The notes beneath the pieces are model-generated. The model was not told where the DNA came from and ran no database searches. It saw only the letters and a list, made by a program, of their open reading frames with translations. The position numbers were made by a program, and so were the translations under genes. From assembly GCA_033060915.1 (NCBI GenBank), contig CM065378.1, forward strand, positions 53,832,001 through 53,896,000: a stretch of DNA of 64,000 nucleotides, written 5' to 3'. Source of the stretch: Euryodendron excelsum. Its lineage: Eukaryota > Streptophyta > Magnoliopsida > Ericales > Pentaphylacaceae. Below, piece by piece: positions 20,494 to 64,000 of the stretch (its first letter is position 1; the number at the start of each line of letters is the position of its first letter).

Positions 20494-23400
20494 TGTAAAC
20501 ACCCCATTTTTTCTCGCTCTACAATCTCTGGCACAATCGAACTAACATTCAAACCGGCACAGACACATTCAAGTCTAAACCTACTTTTCAGACCCAATTC
20601 AATTAATCAAATGCTTCGCGGGCTACAATAGAAGCAAAATGACCAAAATGCCCTTGGGGCATTATTCGATCCAATTCCAGTTGGCATGTCTTCCTAGAGA
20701 CGGTAAGTCCGTGTTTCAAAATTAATTCCAGTTCCAAATTCAGTCCAGACTAGTCAAATTCAATCAGGCACGTCTTTAAGAAAGTTAATCCCTCAAATGG
20801 TAAGTCCATCTAGCATGACATATTTATCAAGAAAAGACAAAACCCCTTAGAATGATAAGTCCCTTCACACTCGTAGGCCGGGACAAAACCTAAGTCCTTG
20901 AGATGGTAGAGCGGTTCACTTCTAGAGCCTGCTAGCCCGCCAACGTAGAATATTCGCTATTCGGCACATTATTTGGGAAAGTACCTAAGGCACCCAGACG
21001 ATAAGACTATCTAGCAGCTTTCCAAGATCAAGCAATCTTCCGAATGAATGCATATTGCCAGAGTGATAGAAACACTCACAAACATTGCAACCATCAGAGT
21101 GACAGAAATACTCGCAAATAGGTCGATATCGAGAATGCTAGCAAACCCCCTATGTCACGAGACCGAACACCCCTCTTGGTTGTGACACGTTTACCAGAAG
21201 ATAGGATACCTTTGGAAACCAACTCGCTACACACCGTTAGAGTAATAGAAACACTCAAAACCCAGGTCAACACCAATGCTTGCGCGCCCATTCTGGTGAA
21301 AAATGACCAAACTATCTTGTAGGCCCCACAAGCACAATTCTCTGTAAAGTACCTAAGGCCTCAGAATGGTAAGTTCACCCTTCCAAGATTATCCTAAAGA
21401 TAATCTAGCACGTTCTAGTGCCTTTCGCTCACTTTCGGATTAATTCCGAGAGTATCCAGCTAAAATGACCATTTTACCCCTAAGCCTTCAATCACCTCTG
21501 GGAAGCACACCGACCCTGGATATTAAACCAGTTACCTTCTAAGGATGTTTCTAACAATATTCCCAATCTTCTAGTACCTTTTCAGACCATTCCAAGTTCA
21601 TTCTGGTAAACCCGATGCGAAATGATCGTTTTGCCCCTAGTGAGCCGGTTGTCTTTTCCAACCACACCGACTTTGAGAATCAAACCGGCAATCCCTCGGA
21701 ACACTCTTAATAATGTTTCCAACCTTCAAGCCTTCTCATAGATCACTCTGGGTCGTTCCTGGTGTTTCCCGATTCAAATGGCCATTTTGCCCCTAGAGGT
21801 CGCGCTTTTCAACTACTCCGGCTCTGATCATCAAGCCAATTACCTTCGAGACACTCTTTTAGGGGTTTCCGGCCGAGTTTGGCTACTCAAAACCTTCTGA
21901 ATCATTCTTGGACTTTTCAGAGTTACTCTTAATGAAGTTAGGCCAAAAACTGCATGGTAGTTACTAGGATAGGCGCCCAAATCTTCTGCCTTACATCACA
22001 AGAGTCAAAGATCTATTTCTCGCCGTCTTAAAAACTTTCCTAAATGGTTGGCACCACTCCTAGTGGCGCCAAGCCAACCTCTGCAACAAGCATCAGGGCC
22101 AAATTTTGGCTATCTATAAATACAAGGTAGGGTTCTATTTAGAAATATAGACGAATCTTCTGATTTAGGAAACCCTAGCTCTCTCACATAAAATCATGAT
22201 TTTCTATTTGCATCCAATCATAGATTTTCAAAATCATTTTCTACATGAAACCATAGATTTCCAAATTCAAAAGTCACATAAAATTATAGATTTCCAAGAC
22301 TAAAGTTTTCTAATTTCAAGTCAAATCAAATATTTTTTTAATTCCAATCTTTCCTAATTCAAAACTTTTCAAAAACAAAATTTTCCTTTCTCAATTGAAA
22401 TCCAATTTTTCCAATTCAATTACATTGAATAAACTCTAGGTCCTAGGATTGCTTAAATCTCGAGTTGCTTTAAACCTAGGTCAAACTTTTTCAAATTCAA
22501 CTTTCCAAATTCAATGTTTCTTAAATAAATCTTTCCTAAAATGGAAACTTTTTTAATTAGCAACTTTCCTAAAATCAAACTTTCTAAAATCAAACTTTTC
22601 AAGTGCATGTTTAAACCATAAGTTATCCAAAGTCCTAGAATGCCAAAATCCTAGTTCAACCCCTAACCCTAAGTTAGAATACTTCAACTCTTTTCTAAAT
22701 CAAGATGGTTTCAAACCCCAATTCAAGTCAAGATAGTTTCAAAGTTCGATTTAAATTTTACAAAATAAGTCCAAGTTCCATTGCAAAGTTGAATTTCAAA
22801 TTTTCAAATTAAAGTTCAAATCAAACCCTTTTCAATTCAAACTTTTCAAAGATCCTAAAGTGTCTATTTTCAATCGAACTCGTGTCTGAACTACGACTGA
22901 CCTGATTCCCAATAAAGGGATACTTAGGCGACCTTCATGGGTGCGGTCATAACTTTTTTCAAAATTTCAATTCCTTTTTTCAAAATCTCTTTCCAAATTC
23001 TTTTCATGCACTTGTATATCATGCATCACATCATCCCTAAAGTGATAACATAAACATTTTTTTCAAAATTCTTAAAGGAGATATAATTAAACATTGGATA
23101 ACTGGAGATTCTAAATGAGTGAACCTGGGGTGAAAAAACATGTAGGTATAGCAAGGTCGGGATAAGATGATAACCTAGTGCATCTTCCTTATACGTAACC
23201 AACCTCCGAACTTATAATTACTATTTTCGAAAGACCAAAATGGAGTTCTTTTCAAAAAAGGCTTAAATATTTCCAAAGGTTGCCAACCAACCTTTTTTTT
23301 TCTTTTCAAAAAAACCCTCTCTTAAGGAAGTTTTCCAAAATCTTTTCAAAAACCCTAAGTTTAGTTTTCGGATTTCACTTAGTTTTAGGTGACGTAACTC

Positions 23401-23571
23401 GCCTTAACAAAGTTAGGTGGTGACTCTAAATCTTTTGTCAAAAGCCCTTATTCAAATCAATTTTCAATTTAAACCTAGTCGCACTCGTCCTTTTAGGAGG
23501 ATGAGTTCTAACGAGAAAGTACCTTGTGTTTTCCACATATTATCTTGACTGCAAAAAATCAGGGCGAGACA
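20494..23571 (+). mobile_element. 5' LTR of element B (3.1 kb)
   Basis: The LTR starts TGTAAACACCCCATTTTTTC and ends AATCAGGGCGAGACA. TCTATAAATACAAGG at about 22,115 is the likely TATA box. Compared with the 3' LTR, about 1.2 kb is missing just after this promoter: GGTAGGGTTCTATTTAG at 22,125 jumps to sequence that matches 37,490 onward. The 5' LTR is therefore crippled for transcription of a normal leader. Conversely, the 3' LTR lacks about 370 bp near 37,770 that is kept here. Confidence 0.8.
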
Positions 23572-23573
23572 GC

Positions 23574-23592
23574 TAACGACTCTGCTGGGGAC
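23574..23592 (+). other. Primer-binding-site-like sequence (tRNA-Arg type)
   Basis: TAACGACTCTGCTGGGGAC lies two bases after the LTR end. It resembles the complement of a plant tRNA-Arg 3' end (ACGACTC...GCTGGGGA), the primer reported for Ogre elements. The tRNA assignment is from memory; position and composition are read directly. Confidence 0.6.
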
Positions 23593-23713
23593 ACTTAGAG
23601 GGTTAGGCCATTGTCATGTCTCTACACTCTTCACTTATCTAGAATCTTCGATTAATTTATCCAATTCTATCCACTTCAAATTTATCAAAATCAAACTTTT
23701 CAAAGGTTGTCAT

Positions 23714-25937
23714 TGTTGGTCCAATAGGCAACCCAAGAGGGGGGTGAATTGGGTTTTTCGAATATTAATACAAGTTAAGATTAATTAAGATTAATCTAAA
23801 CAATATAGCAATGGTTAATCTATGTGCAAAGCAATGTTATCATGAGAAGCAAAGAAAACAGAGCAATAGAAGAGAGACACAGATTTACCGAGGTTCAACC
23901 ACAAATCGTGGTCTACGTCCTCACCCCAAGATCTCCTTGAAGCCTTCTTCCACTATGTAATAAACTATTACAAGATGGGTTGCTGATTGACAAAGTGCTC
24001 AGCTCACTCTACAAGAACTCTTCACCGAGCTCTTCACTTCCCAAGTGGTTTTGTCCAAGCTCCACTCAAACTTTACAAAAGTTTTGCTTCACACAAGAGA
24101 ACTCTCAAACTCTCAAATACAAGTGTATAGAAATATACAACTCACAAACAAACTCTCTAACAAGAGTAGATTTACAATCAAAGCTCACAGATGAAGGTAG
24201 GAAGAATATTCAGTGTATATCAGTGATTCTTGTCTCTTGTTGTTTCTTCCTCTTGATTCTTGTATATAAATGCAGTTGGAGGCTAGTATATATACCCTTG
24301 CATTCATTCCATCCGTTGGAGGTGGTTGGGTATCATTAATGTGCGTCCAATCCATTATGACGTTAAGAAAAATAGCCATTATAACAGAGGGAGTCGGCTC
24401 CATTTTTTGTGGTATTGACACTTCCTGCTTCTGCATTTACCAGACGATGTTCACTAAGTTCATGAGTCCCCTCTTCATGCTGATGAGGCGACTCCTTGTT
24501 CATCTGTCTTCTTCATATTAGGCTTCTGCTGTCATGAAGCGACACTTCTGCTTCAAGTGTCCACTCATTGATCATTTAAACTTCCAGCCTTTTGCTTCTG
24601 CTACCAGGAGGCGACACTTCATCTTCATGTGTCCGCTCATTGATCATTTAAACTTCCAGTCTTGGCGTCTGTCTTCATGAGGCGACATTTCATAATAATG
24701 TGTCCGCTCATTGATCATCTTATCTTCAAGCCTTGGCGTCTGTCTTCATGAGGAGACACTTCATTATAATGTGTCCACTCATTGTCTATTTGGTCTACAG
24801 ACATTTTGCTACTGAGGTCAAAAGGCGACACATTATTTCCATGAGTCCCCTCATTGTTCAATATGTCTTCAGGCCTTTTACATCTGTGATCAGGAGGTGA
24901 CTCCTCATTTTCATGAGTCCCCTCATTGCCCACAATTCAGCCTTCAGATTTCTATTTATCAAGCTTATCAAAGCACTGGTATAAGAACTTCAAGGAGTAT
25001 GTCTTTGGGGTATGATGATCAATCAAATCTTCTTAACTCATTAGAGTTAACTTCTATTTTATTTGGATTGAATCAATCATTGGATGTTGATCTTCTTCTT
25101 GAATCTCAAGTAGTCAAAGCTTCATTTGATTAAAGCTGAACTTTACTTCTTCATTTGCAAAGCTTTTTCAATCATTGTAGAACATCTTATTCAATGCCAA
25201 TCTTCCTCAATTGTATGAAGCTTCACAATGCTTCAATTCTGATTTCCTCTCTTTGATAGCAATTCTTCATTCTTCATTAAACTCACTTTACTGAGACCAT
25301 TGCAGATTAGATGAAATCTATTCACATATCTAATTTTCATTGATCCTTTATATTGTAGAAGAATACTTCACTTGGATTTCATGTGGAGGTCAGATATTCA
25401 TTGTGAGTCATCTTCTCAGCAACTTCAATCACATGTCTTGAATTGGTCTTTAGCATATCAGATGAGATCATCTCTTGAGCATTGTCCAAATTCTTCAACA
25501 AACAATACATCTTCAACTGAGCATTACACTTCTTCAACTAATCTTTGTATATTCTGATGAAATCTTCTTTAGGCATTAACATCATCTCCATTCTTCATCT
25601 TTAACAGATCATTGCATCTCCTCAACTGATGAAGTCTTCAGTCTATCTTGCAAATTAATCTTCATTGAATGTAAGTCATTTTCTTGAAGTAGAGATAGGC
25701 ATCATTTCTCAGCTTGATTCATTGCATAGCTCTTTGAGTTCATTGCTTGATCTTAAACTTGTTGTGCATTCTTCTTGATATATATTAGACTTAAGATCTA
25801 ACTTTAAGTCTAAGTTATAAACTTTGTTAATCTGCACACTAAGTAAATTCATTAATAACATAACACAAGGTTTAGTTATCATCAAAATCAACATGGGAAT
25901 TAACCTTGAGTCAACAAGGATCAACCTTGACTCAACA
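23714..25937 (-). mobile_element. Copia/Sirevirus-like solo LTR, 2.2 kb, perfect GTCAT target duplication
   Basis: On the plus strand the element runs TGTTGGTCCAATAGGCAACC to GACTCAACA, giving TGTTG...CAACA ends. GTCAT flanks both sides (23,709-23,713 and 25,938-25,942). The sequence after the right copy (CACTTGCATTCAATTC) continues the leader as in element A (CACTTGCATTCGTTC, read on minus near 6,280), which confirms the insertion. A minus-strand polymerase II TATA is plausible near the TATATAAATGCAG area (24,261-24,300). There is no internal coding region, so it is a solo LTR made by recombination, inserted after element B. Confidence 0.85.
24470..24935. repeat. Tandem array, about 72-75 bp unit, 6 copies, within Copia-like LTR
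   Basis: Units with GAGGCGACACTTCAT, ATGTGTCCGCTCATTGATC and TTCAGTCTTGGCGTCTG repeat at about 24,530, 24,607, 24,680, 24,750, 24,825 and 24,893. Several copies have CTCCT and AGTCCCCTC variants, matching the GAGTCGACTCC theme of the array at 16,920-17,165. Confidence 0.75.
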
Positions 25938-25942
25938 GTCAT

Positions 25943-27308
25943 CACTTGCATTCAATTCACTTCAATCATTTTATCTTGCATTAAGTTTGTCATCAAGGTA
26001 TTGACCTTTTACATTTTATTTTGTAGGTTGACCATACTCACATTTATTTTTATTATCCATATAAACTACCATGAATGACAAAATGAAATGGATTAGAATG
26101 ATAGGAGTTGTTGGGCCCTTTCCTCCGTTTTTTAAAATTTCACACACATACTACATGTGCACTCGTATTTGCATATTTGCATTCTCTACCTGATTGTGTC
26201 CCTTCTAGTTAGAAATGGGAATGGTATATTAGTTGTGGGCAGATGCTGTATCAGTATCTTAGCCTACGGCCTCTTGATGGTTCCCCCACTCGGATCACCT
26301 ACCGATAATGGCACCAACTGGGGGAGTAAGCCTAAGCTTGAAGATTCGGGAACCGAGCCTCAACCTCATGCTCATGTAGAAACCTATGTATAGTCAAAGC
26401 TCTGCTAGATTTAAAACACGCATATCAATTTCAAAACTATGGAGGAAAGGGCGGCCGTTTTACTTTCATTTATTTTTGTCTATTCCTACTGTTATAATGC
26501 TTGTATAATATTTATATATGCGTATTTACTTTACTATTGCACTCTCTATCCTTATACTCTTGCATACAATTTGAGACAAGAGTTCGAAAGTAACTTAAGT
26601 CATTACATTCTCATGTATATGATCAACCCATAGAGAGACACCAAGCTCACTCTCCCTTTCATAAAACCTACCAAAATCCGATGGGTTCCCACCCAATCCT
26701 AAGGACTCATGGCATGCATCTCAAGTCATCCCATAAAAAGGGGTCTCAATCCCTCTCTGCTTATGGAGATAGGCATGCCAAGAAGATAAGGGGCAAATCC
26801 GGAAGCAAGGTCTCTTACTGACCTCCATCAAAGAAGGCAAATTCGAAGACCCAAGAGTAGTTTAGAATTTCAAATGTAAAAGTGTATAGGCAGAAGTCCC
26901 AAGGCAAATGTTCGCCTCCCCCTATTGAACTGCACTTCGATTCTCTTATATTTAAGCTCAAAGCTCAATATAGCCTTTTTACTTCTTGCGAATGACTGTA
27001 CAGATGAATGTATGTTCCCAATCAACAATAAAGTATCTGTATACAAGGGCAAACTCTCTATCTCCCAAAAAGTGAGCCAAATGCATTATATTTAGTCTCC
27101 CTCTCAAGTAGGGACACCCCGAAAGCATGCATCGCATAAAACTTTCTAAAAATTAAACACTAATTTGTGACTTGTGTCCTTGTTTTCTTTCTCTTTCTTT
27201 TTCCTTCATAGGGGCATAAAGACCACATCGCAAAAAGACATCATTGCTCACAATAAATATTCACAGCCACCTAGAGACTCGATCGTCACTCGACAAAGAG
27301 TTTTACTA
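25943..27308 (+). other. 5' leader of element B, remainder
   Basis: Non-coding leader that resumes directly after the Copia-like insertion and matches element A's leader in reverse (26,060-26,350 against 6,130-5,800). Short frames (26,157-26,393, 26,439-26,633) are not conserved with the other copy. Confidence 0.55.
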
Positions 27309-28760
27309 ATGGCAGCCAATCCTGACGAATCCTCCCCAGACTCTCGAGAGGAGGTCAATGAGATGAGAACCAAGATTGATGATATGTTCAAGCTCATCCA
27401 TGCTATGGCTTTAAAAGATGTTGTTTTAGCCCCATCATCATTCACAAATTTTCCCAAATATTCTTAACTTGCCAACCTGAGAATTGTGCTCTAATATAAC
27501 AGTACGGGGAAAAATAAAGAGGACTCCAAGGGAGTCAACACTGAAGAAGAGGAGACCATATTGCTCTCGCTTGCTACAAAAAGAATTTTCCCATAGCCTC
27601 TTAGCCTGAACATCTAAGGGTTGAAAGACTCATTACGGAGCCTCCATAGCCATGACCCTTTTGGGCTCACTTCTTACTATGAGCTCTGCTTTTTCTCAAA
27701 TCATCCAAGGCCGGCTAAGTTCAAAATGTCTAACTTCAAAAGTATAATGGCACTGGTAACCTCTTAGCCCACCTTTGCCTTTACGCTAGGGCATTGAATG
27801 GCCATGAGAATGACCCAAAGCTTCTCATGTAACTCTTCCAACACAACTTAACTAGGTCCGCTCTGTAGTGGTTTGCTCGGCTTGATCTAAGGAAGGTCAT
27901 AACCTGGAATGAACTGGTTAATACATTTAAACCCCAATACCACCACAACATAGATCTCACTTTTAACTATTAGTCCTTAATGACAATGAGCAAAGAAGAA
28001 AAAGAAAGATTCAAAAGCTATACCCTCAGGTGGAGAGAAGCAGCAGCACAAGTCAATCCCCCTTTAGAAGAGAAGGACTATATGCAACTGTTTGTGTATA
28101 CCTTCTAATACACATACTATGAAAAACTCTGCACAAGTGTGGGGAAAAGCTTTTTTGAGCTGATTTTGCAAGGAGAGATGATAGAAAACGGTCTAAAAAT
28201 GGAAAGAATTACAGAACCCTATGCAAAGGCTGGAGAAAACTCTGCCAACATAGCCAGAAAGGTGGCCACTACAAGGGGATAATCAATAAGGAAAGTGAAG
28301 TGTCAGCCATCTTACCTATTCAACCACCGCAATACCATCCACCACCCCAGTCATATCCTATACTGCCTACACCCACCTTATCCATGCCTACTTAAATGCC
28401 CAACTTTGCCCTTGCTAGGGCACGGCCCAATTTCAACCCCAGTAGGTCAGCCCGACGCATTCACACATTTGATACCCCTAGCATGCACTCAGACAGAAGG
28501 CTACCATAACCTCTTAAAGAATAACATACTAAAGCCCATAATAGCCCATCCGTTGCCAAGCCCTCTACCTCCAACCTTCAATGGCGCCTTCACTTGCGAG
28601 TATCATTCGAGAAGACAAGGGCATGACACTGAAAGCTACTTCTCCCTCAAGCATAAAATTCAAGATCTAATAAACAATAAGACCATCGACTTACAATCAG
28701 TAAAACCTACTCCAACACCTTATGTGACCATAAACCCCTTGCCATATCACATGTCCACCT
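27309..28760 (+). pseudogene. gag: gag relic of element B (Ogre/Tat-like)
   Basis: The start at 27,309 (MAANPDESSPDSREEV) opens a helical N-terminus, then a stop at 27,465. In shifting frames follow the capsid-type core: PAKFKMSNFK near 27,712, then the helices with ITWNELVNTFKPQY near 27,900 and RFKSYTLRWREAAAQV near 28,008, then PPLEEKDYMQLFVYTF near 28,060, a stop at about 28,106, and the knuckle motif CEYHSRRQGHDTES with LKHKIQDLI near 28,593-28,670. The last cysteine of the knuckle is a tyrosine. Order and motifs match gag of Ogre/Tat gypsy elements, which packages element RNA in cytoplasmic particles. At least two stops and two frame changes inactivate it. No protease or RT follows. Confidence 0.75.
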
Positions 28761-28852
28761 GATACTAAAGGAAATAGAAGAGGGGATAAACTAGAGGAGA
28801 CCATAGTCGAGGATTATTCCTATAATAATTGGAAAATTGATGAAGAAAGCGA

Positions 28853-29296
28853 TTGGGAGGAGGTAATCCCGACATGCCTATCTATCTCTATAATCCAAAT
28901 GAAGTGCACGACCCCTCTAACTGGCCAATTAAAGAGTCCTTACCCATAAAGGAGATTCCCACAAAAAACATGACCACTGACGGTTGGGGAGATAAATTCT
29001 TGCATCCTAAGTATGCCCCGACCGAACTTAACCTATCAGAGAACCTTTGGCCCATGATTGAATTCAACTATGAGGACATGGGTCAGGGCCTTAAGGAGCC
29101 AAAAGTACCGGCAAAGCTATTCAAGCTAGAAGGAGGTGAGCTGGCCAACCTGTTTACTAGAGAAATTGAGGAAGCAATGGAGGAAAATAAGAAAATCAAT
29201 GAGGTTGATAATTGCACCATTATTATCAACGCACCAAAAGCCCTGAAAGAGACACCTGCCTGCCTTATCTGGTCTGGTGATCTAAAGGACGGATGA
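28853..29296 (+). pseudogene. Open frame after gag, possible gag/pol-junction remnant
   Basis: A 147-codon open frame starts IYLYNPNEVHDPSNW (about residue 6) and ends LIWSGDLKDG, 90 bases downstream of gag. Composition is protein-like and acidic, with a GELANLFTREIEEAMEEN stretch that could be helical. I recognise no family. Position suggests the C-terminal tail of Gag or the remains of a Gag-Pol junction protein. No aspartic protease D-S/T-G motif is seen in it. The ATG near 28,853 is only the first available start. Confidence 0.4.
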
Positions 29297-31146
29297 AGCA
29301 TCGAAGACATGGGCATCATTCCAAAACCCTGCTAGAAGGGTTCTCCTAAAAGTGTACAAGAGAGGGGTGTTCTCACTCGCTTTCTTTCTATCATTTTTAT
29401 TTTATATCTTTAAATTCATGTCTACATTTTCATTTCAATAAAAATCTTATGCAGTATAAGGAAAATTTTTCAAATTTAAAGTAATAAAGAGATAGTTTTT
29501 CATTCAAAGACTATTATCTCATATTCTTGTAAATGGTGAATGCTTTTAAAAGAGGTGCACTCTATCTTGTGGAGAACCTAAATTGAAGAATGTGATAGCA
29601 AGAGTTAACCACTCACCGAATGGTTAGATTTTTGAAGAGAGGGAAGATGAGAGTGAGTGAGGAAACCACCCAAAAAATAGCACTTACAAAACACCAAAGT
29701 GAAGTGATGGATAGCTAGACTATCAAAAGGAAGATGAGCCATTTTCCAAATCTCCTTGGAAACAAAAAATATATATATATATATATATATTCCCTTTGCT
29801 CAGCCCACTAGTGCCATGCAAAAAGCAAAAGATTTCTTGCTAATGCTGATCCGAAACCATCCCCCTACACTAGGGCGAACAAATAGTAGAAAACTCGGCA
29901 GTAAAGAATGTGTTTCTCCTTCACTTGAAACATCAAGCCAAAGCAACATAAAGGTTTTAGGGATCAAGCAATCCGATTCAAAATGAATAAAAGCCCTCAT
30001 TTCATTTCTCATACAGTTAAAAAGAAACCTTTGTCAAGCCTGTTGAGCCAGCTACGTTCCTTCCCAAGAAAGCCCCAACCTAGTGATCACATTCACAATG
30101 GGTCAAAATAAAGCACTGAGAGAAAATATATCCAAGTAAAAGGGATTGTAAAAGTATCCGTCTCAAAAAAAAAAAAGAGAAAAAAAAGAGAAGAGCTTGC
30201 AATGGTAAAACACAAAAATAGAAATGCCAAGGTAAAAAGGAAAGGCAAGTGTTAATTGATTGAAACTATTAAAGGTGATCTTAGGTAATAAGAAAACTCT
30301 GTATAAGTAATAGGTTCGAGCCTTTACCTTTTCTTGTAAAAATCCAAAACCATGGTCCATATTACAATCCTGTTAAAGTCTCTTCAATCAAAAAAGGGAT
30401 TGTTTGGTTTATATGAGCCGGCCGCATTACTAGGGCCAAGAAGGGATACTAGGAGACGGAACCTCGAAACTTGCTCAAAATAGTGAGGATCTAAACCCTA
30501 CTGGAAACAACATCAAATTTGAGCCCTCATATCCCACTTGATTTCAAAGCCCTATAATTTATGCTGCATTATAGTCCTAAAACAAAGTCTCCTTAGATTA
30601 AAAGATTGGCTGCCCATCATGTTGCCCATGATTCTGCCCCGAGGACTGAGAGTTCGAGCCAAATAATTCCAGACACCGACTTGAGAAGGAAGTCGAAGTT
30701 GACCAGAAGGATGAGAAAGATACAAAATGCTATCATCATCTAATCAAGGTAAGGTCGAGCTAGAGGAGAGGTAAAACCCCTAAAAAAGAAAGAGTTGTCA
30801 TTCTAAAGACCACCTCGAGCATGTTTGTTTGTAACTGTTCATTTTGTTATATGCTTGTATTATGATGAAAATTTTGGCATGAGCTTCGCATACATAGGGT
30901 ATAGCTCCCTGTGAAAATAAAAGTCACCAATTTAATATCATATCCAAACCTGTAATAGATATTTATCATTAACATCATGATAATCCTAACATCTACCCCT
31001 GCTCATACATCTATACATACACCTAGCTATCTGAATCATAAATTTCCATCATATTCAAAGATTATAAATAAGCTACCTGACAAACTCTAATGTATATCCA
31101 AGACATAGGGCGAAAGAAAAGCTGGGCCCATGACAAAGGGCACCCA
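29297..31146. other. Non-coding internal region of element B (where pol would be expected)
   Basis: No RT, RNase H or integrase motif in any frame. It contains a (TA)n run at 29,769-29,790 and CAATAAAAATC near 29,437 that could act as a poly(A) signal after gag. Short frames on both strands are unsupported. Confidence 0.5.
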
Positions 31147-33012
31147 TCAAAGGTCAAAATCAATGTCTAGATCGTAGTCTCCAAAGCTCGGCTTAGGAGG
31201 AGGTGGCTGACTACTGAAAGCATTGGCATCCTACAAAGGGGAAGAACTTAAATTAGCAAAATAGATAGATGGCTAAATAAAGCAAAGATCAAAAAGAAGA
31301 AGAAAATATACCCTGTCACCTCCTATTTGAGCCAACTGTGTAGTCAAAATGGCTACCTCTGCCTGATACTGGTCCCTTTCCATCTAGAATTGATTTCTCT
31401 TTGTCTGGTACCAGTCTCTCTAATCCCTTATAGTAGCAAACTCGGTCTAGGGCACAAATCCCTAAGCTCGACACCACAAATCCACCACCTCCTGGCCCAC
31501 AGCATAGCCTTCAACACCACCTGAAACTGAGTGAAAGCACTTATAGATCGAGCCCCAAAATAGTTGGTGTAGTCGATCTTTGGAGGAAGCAGAAAACTAG
31601 CACCGGGCTGACCCTCTCCGTACGGAATAGGAACCCCCTCAACCAAAGCCCCAAACATATACTTAGGAGGATCCCTAGCCGATCAGAACTCCTTATGAAA
31701 TTGTCGTTAATGCTGTTCTCCCAGATAGAACTCCTAGGACTCATCACTGAGAAAGAAAATCCTCAACAAAGACATCAAGACCAAATACCTAACCATCTCA
31801 TCATTAACCGATCTAACAAAGGGCCGCCAAGTCACATTTGTCACTTCTATCAACTCTAGATTCGCCTGTATTATCACAAAGTCGGTAATCTCAAACCGGT
31901 GGGCTACCTGATCACAAGCCCATCTTAAAACCCGAGGATAAAGGTAAGCCTCCACTGCCTCCAGACGACAAACCGATAGATACCCGTGGCACCACCAAAC
32001 CAGAAAGGGCCAAAAATCGATCATACTACCCTAGCGAGAGGAAGTCCAAACCTACATAGATCGAAGGAAGCAACCAAAAGAGGAAGATCCTCAGTCCAAC
32101 TCTAATAAAACTCCCAAATCGGTTACCAAGCTCACCATCCTGAAAGGAATGATCGACTGGTTATTGTTGCAGAAACAGCTAAACATAATGTATAATAGCA
32201 GTCGCTATCTCATAATATCTCACTAATCAGGTGGCAGCTCCGCAAAAAGGGTACGTTTGTCCTGACTAGGCCAATAGATAGGAAAAGTAGAGCACTCAAG
32301 AGGCGATAAGTCCAACAAAACATAGGCATCGACCCTACTAAGTGGTTGCAAAGTGATCTAACGGCTGACAAAAAAAAGCCCCGTAATGATAGCCTAGTCT
32401 AATGGAGTTAGACCCAGCTTAAAACCCACGAAGTGAAAGGTTTCTGTCTCGCCGAACTATCTCTCTATCAAGGCCAAAACCAACTGGCAGTTCAGGCTAT
32501 TTGTCTGTAATCCCATGAAGGCCTCTAACTCGATCTCTGCGAGAAAAGCACGGTAGGACGAAGCAACTCGTTGTATGGTGCTGAACACTTGGTGAATGGC
32601 CCCTCTAAATGACATATGAACCCTAGGAGGGGGCAAATGCTGTCGTGAATAAACATTAAGGTGATTAGCTAGATCTCCCAATGGGAGAATATTGGGCACC
32701 TCCAAGTCCCCAAGTCTATATCTATTTGCCTTCTCCTAGAAGAAGCCCTCCAGTAGCCTATCGCAAGGTCTCCAAGGCTCGGCGCCTCATCCTCTGCACC
32801 CATCTTCTCCTAAAAAAGGGGCTCTACTAAAGGAAAGGATCTACTAGAGGCATGCCCTCACTCCCTCTCCTGCCAGAAAAGGTCCTACTAACGGACCTAC
32901 GGCTACCCTTGGAGCGATTAGAACTGCCGCCTGAATCAGTGTGAGCTCCCTTCCCTGACCGGTATCTCCTCTCAGAACCATCATCACCCGCATCGATTAT
33001 CCTAAAAATCAA
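31147..33012 (-). pseudogene. Antisense PMD-like (plant mobile domain / aminotransferase-like) gene relic inside element B
   Basis: Read on the minus strand, opposite to gag. The N-terminal part (33,012-32,827) is Ser/Arg/Gly-rich and basic. The segment 32,705-31,430 carries the domain: LVLALIER, stop, FGETETFHFVGFKLGLTPLD (about 32,480-32,398) followed by AIITGL, the pattern of a helix, a W..ET.TFH strand and the T..D...L.GL motif of the PMD family. Further on come FWPFLVWWCHGYLSVCRLEA and YLYPRVLRW (32,015-31,920). The C-terminus has a likely coiled coil (MERDQYQAEVAILTTQLAQI, about 31,380-31,321) and, after an 81-bp intron, a short exon ending DYDLDIDFDL and TGA at 31,147. Several in-frame stops and at least two frame changes (near 32,750 and 31,430) make it a pseudogene. 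PMD proteins (MAIL1/MAIN family) are known both as plant genes and inside transposable elements. Family call by eye only. Confidence 0.6.
31231..31311 (-). other. Probable 81-bp intron of the antisense gene
   Basis: Minus-strand donor GACAGG|GTATATTTTC at 31,311 and acceptor CCCTTTGTAG at 31,231. The interior is T-rich, as in plant introns. Joining is in phase: GGT GAC AGG then GAT GCC AAT, leading into an open 28-codon terminal exon. This preserved phase supports a real spliced gene. Confidence 0.6.
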
Positions 33013-34187
33013 ATCAAGATAAAGGTATCAATATAAGGTATGAATAGTTCAAAATAAAAAAAGGTACAAAAAAAGAAAAGGAAGGAAAGAAAATAACGAT
33101 GCAAATCCCGTTCCCCTACCCCTAGAAGAATCTACTCTATCATATTCCTCTGCTTTCAGGCTTTCTAAATTTTTTCCTCCAAAATTCTATGTCAAAATCA
33201 ATTCCTAAAGATTTTTAAACTTTTCCCTCCAAAAGTTTAGTTCAAAATAAAAATCCAAAGGTAATTTCGAAATAAAATTTTAAAGTTTTATTCAAAATTC
33301 ATTTAAATGGTTTTCTAAACTTTACCTTCAAAAGTTTTATTCAAAATTCCTTTCAAAGGTTTTTTGAGCTTTTCCTTCAAAAAGTTTAATTTTCAAATCG
33401 AGTTTCAAAGTTTTTTAAGCTTTTCCTTCAAAAAGTTTTATTCTAGATCGAACTTCAAAGTTTTCTTTAAAAAGTTTTATTCCAAGTTCCACCAAGTTTT
33501 TCGAGATCTTCTCTGCTAAAAAGGCCCCATCTTCAAAGGTTTGATTTTTTTTTTTCCTTCAAAAAGATTCTATTTAAAAAATTCCTAAACTTTTTTCTCG
33601 TTTTGAAAAATTTTGGAAGTCTCGTTTATAAATGGTCTCTACAATGCCCAAAACTCTGCAACAAAACACAAATCGTGCACCCCATGGTATCACAAGCCCA
33701 CAACATGGATGAACATAAAACAATCTGTGCACATTCTCAAGGTTTTCAAATTTTTTAACAAAAGTTTCTATTTTTCAAAAATCTAAGGGTTTTCAAAATA
33801 CTTGCAAGATCATTTAAAGATACTTTTCTAAAATATTTTCATATTTTTCTAAATATATAACTCGACCAATTCAATCAAATTTTCAATTTTCCCTAGTTTT
33901 CAAGTATTTTTCTTATCTTTCAAAAAAGAAAAATTCAAAAAGTTTTTAGAAAATTATGAAACTTTCCACGGTTGTTTAAAATATTTTTCTTAAGGTACAC
34001 GGTGCAAAAATTTAGCTAGAAAATGCAAAACCTGAGCTTGTAGGCCGGGAAACCCTTGCTTGTAAACATGTAAAACTACATGCAATATCACCTGAGTGTT
34101 CAAAACACATTAAAACATAGATTTTGACTATTCACATGACTCAAATGGAGTTCTACGTATCAAGATCAACACAAAAGAAAAGCTCAC
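33002..34187 (-). other. Possible 5' intron of the antisense gene
   Basis: Minus-strand donor CCAATAG|GTGAGCTTTTC at 34,187 and acceptor TTGATTTGATTTTTAG at 33,002. The intervening 1.2 kb is strongly T-rich on the minus strand's complement and holds the 50-bp array. The first exon (about 34,330-34,188) has no clear start codon in the joining frame, so it may be untranslated. Confidence 0.4.
33190..33490. repeat. About 50-bp tandem array in element B, counterpart of 124-590
   Basis: CCTTCAAAAAGTTTTATT-type blocks recur at about 33,327, 33,376 and 33,427, with weaker copies on each side. It lies inside the proposed 5' intron of the antisense gene. Confidence 0.65.
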
Positions 34188-34620
34188 CTATTGGAGTTCT
34201 CTGGCGAAATCTTCTTCTCTGACGATAAATTCGGTGATGGTGATTACTCCCGGCGACTCTCCAGCATCCCTTAAGTTCACCCCTTCAATGTCCAAGAGTT
34301 CCTCCTTGAAAAAACTCTAAGAAAAGCTCTTAAAATCTAAAAATTCGAACCAAACAGGTAAGCCCCAAGTGAGGGGCTGTTTAACTTTTAAAACTCTAGG
34401 CCTGGCAATGGCGCCAAGGCAATGTTAAGCTTGGCGCCACTTGCAGGGCAATTCTAGGCAATTTTGCATTTTTGCTCGCCAAAATCTGATTTTAAATGCC
34501 TTCTTGGGCCAATCTGCAATTTTCAAGCACCCGTCTTCAAAACCTTCCAATTCCAATCCCTCCGATCGCCTAGCGGTCAATATAGTACCCTTAATTTATC
34601 ATTTTTTGTCTTCGACAAGC
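33491..34620. other. 3' internal region of element B, non-coding on the sense strand
   Basis: AT-rich DNA up to 34,180, then the putative first exon of the antisense gene (34,330-34,188, minus). Two GGCGCC sites at 34,410-34,415 and 34,433-34,438 sit upstream of that exon. They resemble the GGCGCCA motifs upstream of the LTR TATA box. Overlapping plus-strand frames at 34,441-34,760 run into the LTR and are not genes. Confidence 0.4.
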
Positions 34621-34642
34621 AAAGACAGAATAAGAAAGGTAG
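34621..34642 (+). other. Polypurine tract of element B
   Basis: The purine-rich run AAAGACAGAATAAGAAAGG continues to 34,642, immediately before the 3' LTR start at 34,644. This is the expected site for priming of plus-strand DNA synthesis. Confidence 0.65.
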
Positions 34643-34643
34643 C

Positions 34644-37600
34644 CGTAAGCACTCCATTTTTGCCCTCTCGGCAATCTCCGGCCCAACCGGACTCATATTC
34701 AAACAAGTACAGACACATTCAAGCTCAAACTGGCTTTCCAGACTCAATCTAGTTAGTTAACCGCTTCGTAGGCCCGCCAAGCCCAACAGAGACAAAATAA
34801 CCAAAATGCCCTTGGGACATTGCTAGCTCCAATTACAGTTGGCACTTCCTCCTAAAGATGGTAAGTCTGTATTTCGACCTCAATTTCAGTTCCAATTCTA
34901 GTCTAGACCAGTCAAACTCAATCCGGCACATCTTTGAGAAAGTTGATCCCCTAGACGGTAAGTCCATCCAGCATGACACATTTACTGAGAAAACACAAAA
35001 TTCCTCAAAATTATAAATCTTTTCACGCCCGTCAACCAAGACAGAACCCAAGTCTCCAAGATGGTAGAGTGGTTCACTTTTAGTGCTTGCAAGCTCTCTA
35101 AAGTATAATGTTCGCTATTCGGCATGCCAATCGGAAAAGTACCTAAGGCCCCAAGATGATAAGATTATCCAATAGCTTCCCAAGATCAGGTAGTCTCCAG
35201 AATGAACGCACACTGTCAAAGTGGCAGAAACATTCATAAACATCGCAATTGTCAGAGTGATGGAAACACTCATAAACAGGTCAACATCGGAAATGCTAGC
35301 AAACCCCCTATGTCATAGGACCAAACACAGCTCTTAGCCGTGGCATGTTTATTGGAGAAGAAGATACTTTTGGAAACCAACTCATCACACACCATTAGTG
35401 TGATAGAAACACTTAAAACCTAAGTCAACACCAATATCTGCTAGCTCATTTCTGTGAAAAATTACCAAATTGCCCCTTAGACCCTACTAGCACGCTTCTC
35501 GATAAAGTACTTCAGACCTCAGAGTGGTAAGTCCACCATTCCAAGATTATCCGAAAGATAATGTAGCATGTTCTAGTGCCTTCCGATCGCTTTTAGATTG
35601 ATTCTGAGAGTACCCGTTTAAAATAACCATTTTGCTCTTAAACATTCAATTGCCTCTAATAACCACACCGGCTCTGGGTATCAAACCGATTACCTTCTGA
35701 GGGTGATTTTAACAGTATTGTCAATCTTCCAATACCTTTTTGGACCATTTCGAGTCCATTCTGGTAAACTCAATGCGAAATGACTATTTTGTCCTTGTTA
35801 GGCTGGTCGCCTTTTCCAACCACACCGACTTTGGGAATCAAATCGAAAATCATCAGAACACTCTTAATAGCTCTTAATAGTGTTTCCAACCTTCTCATGG
35901 ATCACTCTAAGTTGATCTTGGTGCTCCCTGGCTCAAATAATCATTTTGCCCCTGATGGGTCGGTCGCCCTTTTCAACTACTCTGGCTCTGATCATCAAAC
36001 CAGTTATCTCCGGGACACTCTTTCAAAGGTTCTCGTCCATTCCTACCAGAGCCTGGCTACTCAAAATCTTCCAGATCATTCCTGGACTTTTCGGAGTCAC
36101 GCTTAATGAAGTCAGGCCAAAAACTGCATGGTAGTCACTAGGACAGGTCCCCAAATCTTTTGCCTTACATCACAAGAGTCAAAAATCTATTTCTCACCGT
36201 TTTAAAAACTTTCCTAGATGGCTGGCACCACTCCTAGTGGCACAAACCCAAAATTTGGCCTAACACCACTACAATAGGGGCTAAGGCCAAATTTTGGCTG
36301 CCTATAAACATAGGCCACTCTATGCATATTCCAGATCTGAAAAATCACTCAAGAAACTCCATCTTTCTGAAAATAGGCTTTGAGCTACCCCAAAAAACTT
36401 AATTTTCTCAAGGCTCTCTCAAGTCCTAGCTTCCTACACTTAAACCCTAATTTATACACTTTAAACCCTAGCCTTCAAGCTCCATTGAAGGCCAAGTCCA
36501 GCCTTTTCAAAGCTCTTGAAGGCCTTTTAAGTTCAAGCAAGTCCTCCATTGAAGCCTTCAAACAAATAAGAAGACAAGATAGGGTTCTGTTTACTTTTAT
36601 ATAATCCCCCTCTCTCTCTTTTCCCTCCTAGTTCACTTAGGCTATTCTCTATTTTAATCCCCCTCTTCTACCCCCTCTTCTTGCATACTTGATACAAGGG
36701 ACTTTCCGGTTCATGCCTAGAAAGGCCTTAGAGGAAATCACCATGTTAGGGATTTTCTTTGAGTTCAACCTAAGACGGTATGGGTCGGCCCCCTTGTTTA
36801 TGTGGTAAAGGCTAACCTTGTACGTTCATGCCCTTATTTCATTGTTGCTATCATAATTATGCATTCAAAGATGTTTTCAAACTTGCATTAAATGTTGCTT
36901 TCTAAACTTGCCTTCAAAACCTTTTCTTTCAAAGTTGTTTTCAAAATCACAACCCTAAGATGATTCTAACCATTCTATGAGAAAAATGTTATATTCAATG
37001 CGACCATCAAAATTCATATTAGGGTTTCAAATCCAAGTTGTTTTTAAAATCACAAGCCTAGAATGGTTCTAGTCTTTTCATGATTAGAATTGTTTTAGGA
37101 AAGTAAGATATTTAAGAGATTTTTCAATGTCCAAATTATGGTTTCATGCCCTAAATATGCTTTTCGAAACTTTGTTTTTCAAATTTCTCTAAAATTAGTG
37201 TTGTCTTAAAATCTAAGTCAAAACCCTAGGAATCAAACCTTTTAGGAACCCTAGATTTGACCTAGCCAACATCCTTGCATTCATGACATTCTTTACATTA
37301 AAGTATTTTCAAAATTCATATCATATTTCCAAAATTGTATAACTCACTTGAGTTAGTTTCAAACAAAGTTATAGTTTTCCTAAAATAATGCATTACATGA
37401 AATCATGAGTTTTCTATAACTATGCTATTTTCTTTTTCAAATCAAATTTAATCTTCCATTTGGAAATGAAATAAAATCATCTATCTTTAGAAATAAAATC
37501 GAATCTTCTAATTTAGGAAACCTTAGATTTCTCCCAAAAAATTATGATTTTCTATTTGCATCAAATCATAGATTTCCAAAATCATTTTCTACATGAAATC

Positions 37601-38544
37601 ATAGATTTCCTAATTCAAAATTCACATAAAATTATAGATTTCCAAAACTAAAGCTTTTTAATTTCAAATCAAATCAAATCTTTCCTAATTTCAAAACTTT
37701 ACAAAAATAAAATTTTCCTTTTTCAATTAAAATCCAATATTTTCAATTCAAATGAATTGCATAAACTCTAGGTACTAAAGTTCAAATCAAATCCTTTTCA
37801 ATTCAAATTTTCTAAAGACCCTAAAGTGTCTATTTTCAATCGAACTCTGTGTCCAAACTATGACTGACCTGATTCTCAGCAAAGAGATACGTAAGCAACC
37901 CTCATGGTTGTGATCACAATCTTTTTCAAAATTTTAATTCCCTTTTTCAAAATCTCTTTCCAAATTCTTTTTATGCACTTACATATTATACATCACATTA
38001 TCCCTAAAGTGATGATATAAACCTCTTTTTCAAAATTCTCAAAGTGGATATAATTGAATATTGGATAATTAGAGATTCTAAATGAGTAAACTTAGGATGA
38101 AAAAATATATAGGTACCGCAAGGTCGGGATAGGGTAATAGCTTAGTGCATCTTTCCTATATGTAATCGAGCTCCGAACCTAGAATCACTATTTTCGAAAG
38201 ACCAAAACAGAGTTATTTTAAAAAAAGGCTTAATTCTTTTCATAGGTTGCCAACTAACCTACCTTTTTTTTTTTTTTTTCAAAAAAACCCTCTCTTGAGG
38301 AAGTTTTTCAAAACTTTTTCAAAAACCTTAAGTTTAATCTTTGAATTGCACTTAATTTTAGGTAACCTAACACACCTTAACAAAGTTAGGTGGCAATTCT
38401 AAACTTTTTTCCAAAATCGCTTATTCAAATTAATTTCCAATCCAAACCTAGTCACACTCGTTTTTCTAGGAGGATGAATTCTAACGAGAGAGTAACTAGT
38501 GTTTCCCACATATTATCTCAAGTGTGAAAAATTGAGATGCGACA
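34644..38544 (+). mobile_element. 3' LTR of element B (3.9 kb)
   Basis: It starts CGTAAGCACTCCATTTTTGC (the expected TG is CG) and ends TTGAGATGCGACA. It aligns with the 5' LTR through U3 (AAATGACC/TTTTGCCCC modules, GGTTACCTCC-type blocks), a TATA at GCCTATAAACATAGG (about 36,301) and U5. It retains about 1.2 kb after the promoter that the 5' LTR has lost, and lacks about 370 bp near 37,770. A poly-T stretch lies near 38,265. Confidence 0.8.
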
Positions 38545-40184: not shown

Positions 40185-43100
40185 TGTAAGCACGCCATTT
40201 TTACCCACTCAACAATCTCTGGTTTAACTGGATTCACATTCAAACCGACACAGGCATATTCAAGTCTAAACCAGCTTTCTAGACTCAATCCAATCAATCA
40301 ATCGTTTTGGTTACCCATCGGGCCCAATAGAGGTAAAATTACCAAAATGTCCTTGGGGCATTTCTTAGTCCAATTCCAATTGACACGTCTTCCTAAAAGT
40401 AGTAAGTCCCTATTTCAACATCAATTCCAGTTTCAATTCCAGTCTAGACCAATCAAACTCAATCCGACATGTCTTTTGAGAAAGTAAATCTCTTAAATGA
40501 TAAGTCTATCATGCGTTTACCGAGAAAACTCCTTGGAACGATAAGTCCCTTGAAACCTGGCAACCGGGATGGAACCTAAGTCTCCGAGATGGTAGAACAA
40601 TTCACTTTTGGCGTCTACTAGCCCACCAATGTAGAATGTCCGTTATCCAGTATGTCTTTTGAGAAAATTGATCCTTTAGACGATAAGTCTATCTAGCAGT
40701 TTCCCAAGATCAGGCAGTCTTTGAAACGAACGCACATTCCAAAGTGACGAAAACACTCACAAACATCACAACCATCGAAATGACGAAAACACTCGCAAAC
40801 AAGTCGATATTGAGAATTGCCAACGAACCCCTATGCCACGGGACCAAACACGCCTCTTGGCTATAACACATTTACTGAAGGACGAAATACCTTTGAAAAC
40901 CAACTCGTCACACACCATTAGAGTGATAGAAACACTTAAAACCCAAGTAAACACTAGTGCCTACTAGCCCACTCCAGTAAAAAAATAACCAAATTGCACC
41001 CTAGGCCTTTTTCGACACGTTTTTCGAGAAAGTACCTAAGTCCTCAGAGTGGTAAGTACATCCTTCCAAGATTGTCTTTGGGACAATCCAGCATGTTCAA
41101 GTGCTTTCTAGTTGATTTTGGATCATTTTTGAGACTATCCGATCAAAATGACCATTTTGCCCCTAGGCATCTGATCGCCTCTGGGAACCACACCGGCTCT
41201 TAGTATCAAACCGATAACCTCCCGAGGATGCTTTTAATAGTATTCTTAACCTTCTAACACCTTTCAAGATCATTCTGAGTCTATTATGGCAACCTTGGTG
41301 TAAAATAATCGTTTTGCCCCTAGTGGATTGATTGCATTTTCCAACCACACCGGCTCTAGATATCAAATCGGCAACCCTTTGGAACACTCTTAGTAGTGTT
41401 TCCAACCTTCAAGCTTTCTCACAGGTCACTTCCGGTCCATTCCGGTATTTTTTTGGTTCAATTAACCATTTTTCCCCTAGCGGGCTAGTCGCCCTTCTCA
41501 AACTATTCTAGCATGGCTTCTCGAGCCAGTTACCTCCAAGACACTCTCTTGAGGGTTCCCGTCCATTCCCGGCCGAGTCTAATTACTCAAAACCTTTCGG
41601 ATCATTCCCGAACTTTCTAGAGTCACTCTTAGTAGAGCCAAGCCAAAAATTGCATGGTAGTCACTAGGATAGGCACTCAAATCTTTTGCTTTGCGTCCCA
41701 AGAGTCGAAAGATACATTTCTTTCCACTCTAAAAACTTTCCTAAGTGGTTGGCACCACTAGCAGTGGCATTAATCCAATGAATTTTTTGCCCTAACGCCA
41801 CTACAACAAGCGCCAGGGCTATTTCAATTGTCTATAAATATAGACTCTCCCCTTGCGTAAAAAGGGTCCACAAACTTAGTCCAAAAATGTTGTCTTTCTG
41901 AAAATAGAGCTTGAAGTCTCTCTAAACCCTAATTCTCTCAAGCTTCTTCAAACTCTAGCCTCCATACACTCAAACCCTAACCTTTATACACCATATATAC
42001 TCAAACACAAGCCTCAAGTTATCCATTGAAGACTCGAGTGTTGCAACTTCAAAACTCTCAAAATTCAAGAATAGTAAAGCAAACCAAGCAATCAAAGTAA
42101 GAAGAATACGAGATTGGTTTTTTATTTACTTTTATGTAATCTCTTATCTCTCTTCTTCCTCCGAACCCACTTGGGTTTTCTTCTATTTTAATTCCTATCT
42201 TTTACCGCCCCTTCTTGCATGCTTAAAACAAGGGACTTACAGATTCATGCCTAGGAAGAACTGTTAAATATTACCGTGCTGGGGGCTTTCTTCTAATTCA
42301 ACCTTTGATGGTGTGGGTCTGGTCCCCTTAATTATGTGATGACGCCTGGCCTTGTATGTTTACGATCATATTGCATTGTGCATGTCATATTCATACATCC
42401 ATTCAAAATTACTTTCAAAATTGTTTTCAAACTTGCATCAAAACTCTCTTTCAAAACTTATATTCAAAATATCTTTCTTTTAACTTATTTTCAAAATCAC
42501 ACTCCTAAGATGATTTTAGTCATTCCATGGTTAGGGTTGTTTTAACAAATTATTATATTCGATGTGACTATCAAGATCCAAATTTTTTGGTGTAAACCTT
42601 AATTTATTTTTATCAAAACCACAATCTTAAGATAATTCTAACCATTCCATGGTTAGGGTTGTTTTAAGAAAGTGTTATATTTAATGTGATCATCATGCTC
42701 TATATTTCAAATTCATGTTATTTTCAAAATCACAATCTTAGAATGGTTATAATCTTTTCATAGTTAAAATCGTTTTAGAAAAGTGAGATATTTAAAAGAT
42801 TTTTAAAAGTCCATATTCAAACCCCTGTTCAAATTGTTTTGTAAATCTATTTCTTAAAAACTCTTTTCAAAAATCTATTTCCTAAAAACTCTTTTCAAAA
42901 ATCTATTTCCTAAAAACCCTTTTCAAAGATCTACTTTCCAAAAATTCTTTATCTTAGAGTCCAAGTCAAGCCCTAGAATCCATGATTAAGAAACCCTAGT
43001 TCATCTCTTAAAATCATGACTTCTTCTTTTGCCTCAAATCATAAGTTTTCAAAACTATTTTCTACATCAAATCATAGGTTTTCAAAACCTATTTTCCTAT

Positions 43101-44949
43101 CAAATCATAAATCTCCAAATTCAAAATTTTCAAAATTCAACGTTTCCAATTTCATGTCAAATCAAGTCTTCCAATTTAAAAAATCAAATTAAATCCTCTA
43201 ATTTTGAAAACAAACTCAAATCATCAATTTTTGAAAACAAAATCCAATCTTCTATGTTATGAAATAGGAATCAAACCTTTCCTAATTCTAATTTTTCCTA
43301 AACTCTAATTTTTCCTAATTCTAATATTCCCTAAACTCTAATATTTTCTAATTCTAATTTTTCTTAATTTCAAACCTTTTCAAATCTCAACTTTCTAAAA
43401 TTCAACTTTCAAATCTTTTCAAATTCTAAAACTTTCCTAATTTCAAACTTTCAAACCTTTCTTATTTTCAAACTTCTAAATCTTTCAATGTTCGAATCTT
43501 TCTAAATTCAAAATTTTCTAAATGCAAATGTTTCCAAAATTAATATTCTCCTAAAATGAAATTTTCTTAATTTGAAAACTTTCTTAAAATGAAACTTTTC
43601 TATTTCGAAACTTTCCTAATTCTAAGTTTTTCTTAGTTCAAGTTTTTCCAAATTCTAACTTTCCAAATTCTTCCATATCGAGTCAAATCTTTACGAGTCT
43701 TTTCTAAATCAAGTGTTTTTAAATCAAGTCAAATCTTTTCCAAATTTTTCTTAAATTCAACTTTTCTAATCTGAAACTTTTTTAATTCGAAACTTTCTTA
43801 AAATCTAACTTTCTAAAATCAAACCTCTCAAGTTCAAATCAAGTGCTTAATCCAATTGTATGTTTCAATCCTTAGGTTATCTAAATCCTAAGATATCCAA
43901 ACCCTAATTCAACACTAACCCTAAAATTAGGAAGTTTCAACTCTTTTTTAAACTAAGATGGTTTTAAAACTTCAATTCAAGTTAAGAAGTTTTCAACACT
44001 CAATTCAATCTTTCTAAATCAAGTCCAAGTTCTCCTTCAAAGTTCAATATTTTCTAGTCAAAATAAATTTCAAAATTCTCAAATTCAATTTTAAATCAAA
44101 GTCAATTCCAAGTTCAATTTTAAATCTTTTATTCAAAGTTCAAGTCAAACCCTTTTCAAATCAATCATTTAAAGTTAAATTTTTCAAAAACTTCAAAGTG
44201 TCTGTTTTTAATTAGACCTCGAGTCTGAACTATAACTGACCTAATTCCCAACAAAAGGATACGTAGGCAACCCTCATGGGTGCGGTCACAAGATTTTTCA
44301 AATTTTTAATTCCACCATCTATTTCAAATTTTCAATTCCATAAACTATTTCAAGTTTTAAATCTTCTCTTCAAATGTATTTTCAAAATCAAATCTTTTTC
44401 TTGCACTTGTATGTCATGCACCATATTAACTTGTTGTCTAAAATTCTTTTTAAAGTGGATAGTATTGGACATTGAATAATCAAAGATTCTAAATGAATGA
44501 ATCTAGGGTGAATAGACATGTAGGTACTGTAAGGGCAAGATAGGGTGATGATCTTAGGATATTTTCTCTACACGTAACTAACATCCGAACCTAGAATCAC
44601 TATTTTCAAAAACTAAAATGGAGTTATTTTCAAAAAGAGAGCTTAAATCTTTTTAAAGATTGCCAAACAACCTGCTTTTTTAAAAATCTTTTCTTGAGAA
44701 AGTTTTTTAAAACTTTTTTAAAACCCCTAAGTTTAGTCTTCGAATTGCACTTTGTTTTAGATGACCTAACTCACTTTAATCTAGTTAGGTGGGGACTCTA
44801 AATATTTTTTAAAAGTCTTTATTCAAAATCAATTTTCAATTTAAATTTAGTCGCACTTGTCCTTTTAAGAGGATGAGTTCTAATAAAAGAATACCGTATT
44901 TTTCTCACTTGTGTGTTTTATTTCAAGTACGAAAAATCAGAATGTGACA
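40185..44949 (+). mobile_element. Solo gypsy-family LTR, 4.8 kb
   Basis: It begins TGTAAGCACGCCATTTTTAC and ends AAAAATCAGAATGTGACA. U3 modules (AAAATGACCATTTTGCCCCT at 41,145-41,164), a TATA at TGTCTATAAATATAGACTC (about 41,828) and U5 all match the LTRs of element B. No internal region or partner LTR adjoins it. Flanking pentamers CAGAG and CATGA do not match, so the duplication has decayed or recombination joined different elements. Confidence 0.8.
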
Positions 44950-46679: not shown

Positions 46680-46771
46680 AGCACTAGATGGTCGCCGGAA
46701 AACACTAATGATAGTTCATATTTTCTGTATAACAATATTTTATACAAGGAATTACATACTCTCTTCTAATC

Positions 46772-63959: not shown

Positions 63960-64000
63960 CAGACTTTTTTTTAAAAATATGTTTAACTTTTCTCTTGTAA

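Follow-up and report, generated by a model that had tools for sequence, protein, structure and literature searches.

An antisense PMD gene and its relatives

The window analyzed here, 64,000 nucleotides (nt) from the forward strand of contig CM065378.1 (positions 53,832,001 to 53,896,000) in the Euryodendron excelsum assembly GCA_033060915.1, is part of a 1.06-Gb genome and holds an old long terminal repeat (LTR) element of about 18 kb (20494-38544). Between the gag gene and the 3' LTR of this element, on the minus strand at 34330-31147 and antisense to gag, lies a decayed gene for a PMD-domain protein. Its parts are listed below, with reference to related loci elsewhere in the genome; of these, L051, L053, L054, and L055 are the members of the L051-type, open-frame subfamily that were examined.

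34188..34330 (putative 5' end), minus strand: exon 1, an untranslated leader; donor side alike in the window, L051, and relatives
33002..34187, minus strand: intron 1, the leader intron, 1186 nt; donor and acceptor conserved in relatives
31312..33001, minus strand: exon 2, with a basic Ser/Arg-rich N terminus, PMD domain, and coiled coil (by eye), and with codon-position bias
31698..32510, minus strand: match to the PMD domain profile PF10536, profile positions 8-285
31231..31311, minus strand: intron 2, 81 nt, GT-AG; aligned in 29 of 31 rows
31147..31230, minus strand: exon 3, an acidic tail ending DYDLDIDFDL and the stop codon; same tail in L051, L053, L054, and L055

Judged by its sequence, the window copy is a dead relic of an antisense gene. 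It has 12 in-frame stops over 435 residues, several frame shifts, and no start codon, and a stop codon separates TPLD from AIITGL. The first-pass annotation had described a PMD-type signature opposite gag and a short last exon ending DYDLDIDFDL. The strings it quoted are present on the minus strand, the last exon is found at 31230-31147, and the PMD frame alone, with stops written as X, matches PF10536 with an E value of 2.3e-7 and 30.8 bits, which is under the curated cut-off of 34.9.

A whole-genome protein search for the PMD gene, in which 97 of 9,953 first-look candidates were scored, places this relic among 96 scored relatives of 63-68% identity. A search for intact copies in the same genome had been proposed at the outset, and copies with open frames exist: 34 of the 97 are without a stop (table read by eye), and L051 retains both the PMD domain and intron 2. 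Exon 2 of L051 yields a 556-residue piece (P0001) that ends one codon ahead of the donor and matches PF10536 with an E value of 3.3e-23 and 82.9 bits, above the cut-off, and it is through this relative that the gene can be assigned to the PMD family. Joining exons 2 and 3 of L051 gives a predicted product of 585 residues. It could be argued that these are chance open frames opposite an old repeat, as a window copy full of stops might suggest. Relatives with open frames, a profile match over the cut-off, and codon-position bias in 30 of 30 copies (described below) speak against this explanation, which is almost certainly wrong; chance frames were ruled out on the codon bias together with the open-frame relative above the PMD cut-off.

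Among the scored copies, the longest open frame, 674 amino acids, belongs to L054 (C22:4961839-4962098). Four PMD open reading frames (ORFs; L001, L002, L003, and L005) cluster within 30 kb (G000 C10:3349513-3378289), with open frames of 650-958 amino acids. In the coiled-coil part of exon 2, near L051 2718-2730, L010-L038 and the window carry in-frame insertions of 6, 9, 12, and 21 nt, together with some of 1 and 20; those in the window sum to 21 nt, or one heptad. Twelve stretches with strong PMD matches (L039-L050) were considered as close relatives; by eye they resemble MULE transposase-PMD elements, and they were set aside. Solved structures gave no match, and neither did a plasmid search.

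Two predicted introns

In all four open-frame copies, a GT-AG segment lies between exon 2 and the tail exon, which ends FDL-stop. In L051 the segment measures 91 nt, and those of L053-L055 are shorter by three alignment columns. In three of the four (L051, L053, and L055), the tail comes into frame with exon 2 only after the segment is removed, and in L053 and L055 an in-frame stop lies within it. The 81-bp intron proposed in the first-pass annotation is found in the window at 31311-31231, where it contains two in-frame stops. Its joining preserves phase, as noted there, but since 81 is a multiple of three, phase is kept in the window spliced or unspliced alike.

The same annotation took a second donor/acceptor pair to imply an upstream exon. 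The pair (34187/33002) is conserved in relatives, with a GTGAG donor and an AG acceptor (GT in 14 of 20 rows and AG in 20 of 28), after removal of rows covered to less than 60%: 3 of 31 from the acceptor-1 alignment and 11 of 31, L051 among them, from the donor-1 alignment. An ATG stands immediately behind the acceptor in 23 of 28 rows, and the upstream exon can therefore be read as an untranslated leader, rather than a coding exon, with intron 1 as a leader intron. Both introns fall outside the PMD match, whereas a break within the domain, near profile position 181, is seen in many PMD matches of the genome.

It had further been suggested that introns on this strand are protected, as new copies derive from the sense RNA. 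Counts of junction patterns lend sequence support to this idea for the L051 subfamily. The unspliced exon 2-intron 2 pattern, at no more than 3 mismatches, occurs at 972 genomic sites (471 + 501), and a spliced pattern of equal length at 0 sites genome-wide. Reversed patterns, used as a control, gave 0 sites for unspliced and spliced forms alike. With the same tolerance, the donor pattern is matched by three of the four open-frame copies and by 0 of 30 old loci.

Several observations count against this account of the introns. A change before the donor in L054 makes the unspliced frame continuous through intron 2 to the tail, and retention of the intron may be tolerated in some lineages; the frame of L051 is also open through intron 2, though it is not the frame of the tail. 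Splice-site conservation is unexceptional. The intron 2 alignment comprised 31 rows (the window, L051, and 29 old copies), from which L030 and L033 were dropped as they have no homologous sequence; in the remaining 29 rows, GT is kept in 24, AG in 19, and both in 15. With L051 left out, 23 of 28 copies keep the GT and 18 of 28 the AG, and 33 and 55 of the 76 interior dinucleotides are equally well kept. Such equal decay of splice and interior dinucleotides fits neutral decay after insertion and gives no support of its own. As no old locus matches the donor pattern, the junction counts are informative, and valid, for the L051 subfamily only. Transcription and splicing of the antisense gene are, moreover, predictions from sequence.

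An alternative would be that the segment of 81-91 nt is not an intron, that the protein normally terminates within it or continues across it, and that the last exon is separate or optional. This agrees with the unspliced frame that reaches the tail in L054, the open frame of L051, and the ordinary conservation of the splice dinucleotides in old copies. It is at odds with the tails of L051, L053, and L055, which are out of frame unless the segment is removed, with the in-frame stops inside the segment in L053 and L055, and with shared indels that keep the frame in exon 3 and not in the segment (see below), and we consider it improbable.

Selection on the protein and its origin

Selection on the protein is seen in the pattern of differences between L051 and 30 other copies (29 relatives and the window), each aligned singly to L051, with alignment blocks of fewer than 12 columns excluded from codon counts. 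In exon 2, mismatches at codon positions 1, 2, and 3 amount to 0.217, 0.159, and 0.501, with the third position highest in 30 of 30 copies; the corresponding values in exon 3 are 0.171, 0.237, and 0.372. Mismatch is 0.331 in intron 2 and 0.31-0.33 in the flanks. The bias persists when transversions alone are counted (0.068, 0.047, and 0.190, with 0.140 in the intron) and at A/T sites alone (0.144, 0.075, and 0.506), and it is therefore not a product of CpG decay. Variants common to at least four copies are codon biased (0.363, 0.291, and 0.532 per site), whereas singletons are flat (0.567, 0.550, and 0.575), as would follow from selection during the spread of the family and free neutral decay after insertion. 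Omega has a median of 0.0985 and a range of 0.058-0.133 over all 30 copies.

Insertions and deletions, with shared ones tallied in 6-nt bins, point in the same direction: those most widely shared keep the frame in both exons and break it in intron 2. Exon 2 has a +9 common to 13 copies and exon 3 a -3 common to 26, as opposed to -1 (21 copies), -1 (13), and -7 (11) in intron 2. Over all copies, in-frame and frame-breaking indels number 29 and 6 in exon 3, 6 and 119 in intron 2, and 146 and 658 in the flanks.

Some of the data temper this picture. Within blocks of at least 12 columns, intron 2 (0.331) is less diverged from L051 than are third positions, and synonymous differences are near saturation (approximately 0.69), which makes omega a rough value. 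The codon bias of exon 3 is weak within the old family alone (0.218, 0.203, and 0.227). In exon 2, a -1 is common to 12 copies, partly balanced by a nearby +1 in 7, and in-frame and frame-breaking indels over all copies stand at 77 and 237; this excess is to be expected of decayed copies, yet it provides no support. Taken together, the sequences nonetheless support preservation of the protein by selection while the family spread.

As to where the gene came from, the closest relatives of P0001 are P0002 (58%) and P0003 (30%), the latter an annotated Heracleum protein that could be a host or an element gene. When the homolog search was repeated with an alignment of all three proteins, it returned only P0002 and P0003 again, and a structure prediction of P0002 with P0003 as alignment reached a pLDDT (predicted local distance difference test) of 33 and was unusable. 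The first-pass annotation proposed that the family had captured a host-type PMD gene. PMD genes are present in this genome, and introns are a feature of host genes, so that a recent capture of such a gene with its introns is conceivable. The six single-frame PMD ORFs of the same genome are, however, just 22-35% identical to P0001, over 36-284 residues, well short of the 58% of P0002. The PMD match of P0001 is also unbroken, unlike many others in the genome. Furthermore, the trees of Ikeda 2017 place PMD-A within Gypsy elements across angiosperms, and PMD frames are reported in 57% of Ogre elements (Neumann 2019, PMC6317226). On this evidence, a recent host capture is not supported, and we regard it as unlikely.

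The LTR element, a proposed mechanism, and known systems

The remaining parts of the element are as follows.

20494..23571, plus strand: 5' LTR, from self-comparison; TG start and CA end
23574..23592, plus strand: putative primer binding site, sequence judged by eye
~27309..29296 (ends by eye), plus strand: gag, broken into several frames, with a Retrotrans_gag domain at ~27833-28093
29297..31146, no strand: spacer between gag and the antisense gene, without a long open frame
34644..38544, plus strand: 3' LTR, from self-comparison; begins CG where TG is expected

With direct LTRs, TG/CA ends, and flanking 5-mers (AATCT and AACCT, identical at four of five positions) that plausibly represent a target-site duplication, the element has the features of an LTR retrotransposon. 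Compared with its 3' counterpart, the 5' LTR has lost about 1.2 kb by deletion. The two LTRs are separated by a Kimura two-parameter (K2P) distance of 0.241 (2828 aligned sites), which indicates an old insertion. The putative primer binding site resembles, by eye, the complement of the 3' end of tRNA-Arg. Ogre elements use a tRNA-Arg primer (PMC9289625).

The window gag matches PF03732 with an E value of 1.8e-6 and 28.5 bits, above the cut-off of 24.1. A genome search with a piece of gag, in which 150 of 8,051 candidates were scored, found open frames of 692 amino acids in 17 copies and a longest frame of 731; none of the 150 had a gag frame of at least 1000 amino acids. No pol was found in the copies examined. 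A gag-only element, as first proposed, fits these copies, in which gag is present and pol absent, as in nonautonomous, TR-GAG-like elements.

The antisense gene has a conserved coding frame opposite to gag and near the 3' LTR, as expected of an antisense accessory ORF. Among scored hits, window included, 14 gag/PMD pairs lie no more than 3.5 kb apart; every one of them is convergent, at a spacing of 3152-3442 bp. Three further pairs within 30 kb (8.8, 11.2, and 29.0 kb) are not convergent. In a DNA comparison by hand of eight pairs besides the window, the spacing was 1.87-1.92 kb in four (1.85 kb in the window), 6.6-6.9 kb in three, and 10.6 kb in one. The wide gaps were considered as a sign of an autonomous form with pol and rejected as such; one of the four (C15), opened over 651 bases, contained related LTR sequence. 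The consistent convergence of close pairs would suit a role for the antisense RNA itself, through double-stranded RNA, small interfering RNA, or transcriptional interference with gag, with the protein secondary, an option raised for plant antisense ORFs in a 2020 review (PMC7264820). A role of the RNA would leave the strong protein-level selection unexplained, and we give it little credence.

Over the 1.5 kb of flank covered, the gag-PMD spacer runs colinear with that of the window in 16 of 29 fetched copies; it is interrupted or shorter in 8 and without a match in 5. Seven of the eight resemble window LTR stretches, and L019 does not. In L019, L028, and L029, similarity in the spacer stops at about one place (window 30849-30859), with LTR-like sequence beyond the break in L028 and L029.

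Around the element, the window appears as a nest of related LTRs, with further LTR-like stretches of approximately 66-80% identity to the element LTRs in both orientations (40185-44937, 16207-11766 in reverse, 6521-10700 in reverse, and 59239-63060). A 4.2-kb inverted repeat (47311-51572 and 58005-53817, 91.6% identity), less diverged than the surrounding LTRs, is accompanied by short direct repeats (46511-46681 and 63793-63962, 94%). At 24522-24877, downstream of the 5' LTR, a unit of about 71 bp is present in five tandem copies, maybe within a nested insertion. Rfam and tRNA scans of the window gave no match.

The window feature is, in our view, very probably the decayed remnant of a genuine accessory gene, convergent to gag and with two predicted introns, that belongs to a high-copy, gag-only (nonautonomous) LTR family. 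The case is built from the sequence: the architecture, the protein-level selection, the frame kept across intron 2 in most copies seen, and the fact that no intron-free copies were found. It can be hypothesized that a promoter near the 3' LTR makes an antisense mRNA. Splicing would remove two introns from it, the leader intron (about 1.2 kb) and a small one (81-91 nt). The mRNA would then be translated into a protein of about 585 amino acids with a basic Ser/Arg-rich N terminus, a PMD domain, a coiled coil, and an acidic tail. The element itself would replicate through its sense RNA. There, the introns are present as their reverse complement and could not be spliced, and new copies would for that reason retain them. 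Reverse transcriptase and integrase would presumably be supplied in trans by another element.

By analogy with known systems, the protein could tentatively be seen as a nuclear regulator. It might protect the element against PMD-type (MAIN/MAIL1) silencing or adjust its own expression, in the manner of HBZ, the spliced antisense gene of human T-cell leukemia virus type 1 (HTLV-1). A bolder and speculative idea is that of a gag-plus-PMD element that parasitizes other retrotransposons and has a spliced antisense gene for a decoy or rival of host MAIN/MAIL1, a plant counterpart of HBZ, with antisense introns allowing nuclear, spliced expression free of the risk of intron loss.

The family also suggests how a retroelement could cleanly carry introns, by placing the gene on the strand whose RNA is not the one replicated. 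A single genome offers roughly a thousand unspliced junctions that can be detected, along with numerous open-frame copies, so that both splicing and function lend themselves to direct tests. PMD proteins are found both in host silencing and in elements, and a PMD gene under selection within an element without pol may also bear on the role of element-borne PMD proteins.

PMD-bearing Ogre/Tat elements were reportedly described by Steinbauerova in 2011. The PMD domain is known only from angiosperms (PMC8616336), and in another survey it is the most frequent unusual domain of Gypsy elements (PMC9289625). Ogre/Tat PMD elements are Ty3/gypsy elements that have, like the present one, an additional PMD reading frame. 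They differ in that no pol was found here and in that the PMD gene here is antisense, with two predicted introns; the accessible text of PMC6317226 is silent on PMD orientation and introns. The host silencing factors MAIN and MAIL1 (PMC8616336, PMC5418596) and other PMD proteins (PMC7156037) share the PMD domain with the antisense gene, and MAIN and MAIL1 are host genes that act in silencing. That PMD proteins made by elements may serve to counter silencing has been noted as an idea (PMC8616336).

In arrangement, the closest plant parallels are Grande gene23, RIRE2, and Retand ORF4, antisense ORFs between pol and the 3' LTR (PMC7264820; also PMC11963269). As here, they run antisense to gag and adjoin the 3' LTR, and Grande gene23 has its own promoter and a nuclear product (PMC7264820). 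In its accessible parts, that review mentions neither PMD nor introns in these ORFs; it states that what such antisense accessory genes do for plant LTR elements is unknown and asks that antisense and spliced transcripts be examined. TR-GAG elements (PMC7765848) likewise have two LTRs and gag without pol; the present element differs in its size of about 18 kb and in its antisense gene, which the accessible text of that source does not mention for TR-GAG. Searches of the open-licence literature gave no report of an antisense gene with introns in any plant LTR element.

The nearest counterpart in splicing is HBZ itself, which is antisense, starts in the 3' LTR with its first exon there, and has introns of 1400 or 1540 nt in its two variants (PMC1459196). 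Like the PMD gene, in which splicing is predicted, it is a spliced antisense gene at a 3' LTR, and its introns would likewise be kept through replication of the sense RNA. It differs in encoding an unrelated protein, in belonging to an animal retrovirus, and in being translated mostly from exon 1. PMD domains in Gypsy elements, antisense ORFs in plant elements, and a spliced antisense gene in HBZ are thus each known, and what the present family appears to add, relative to the open-licence literature, is an intron-bearing antisense gene in a plant element.

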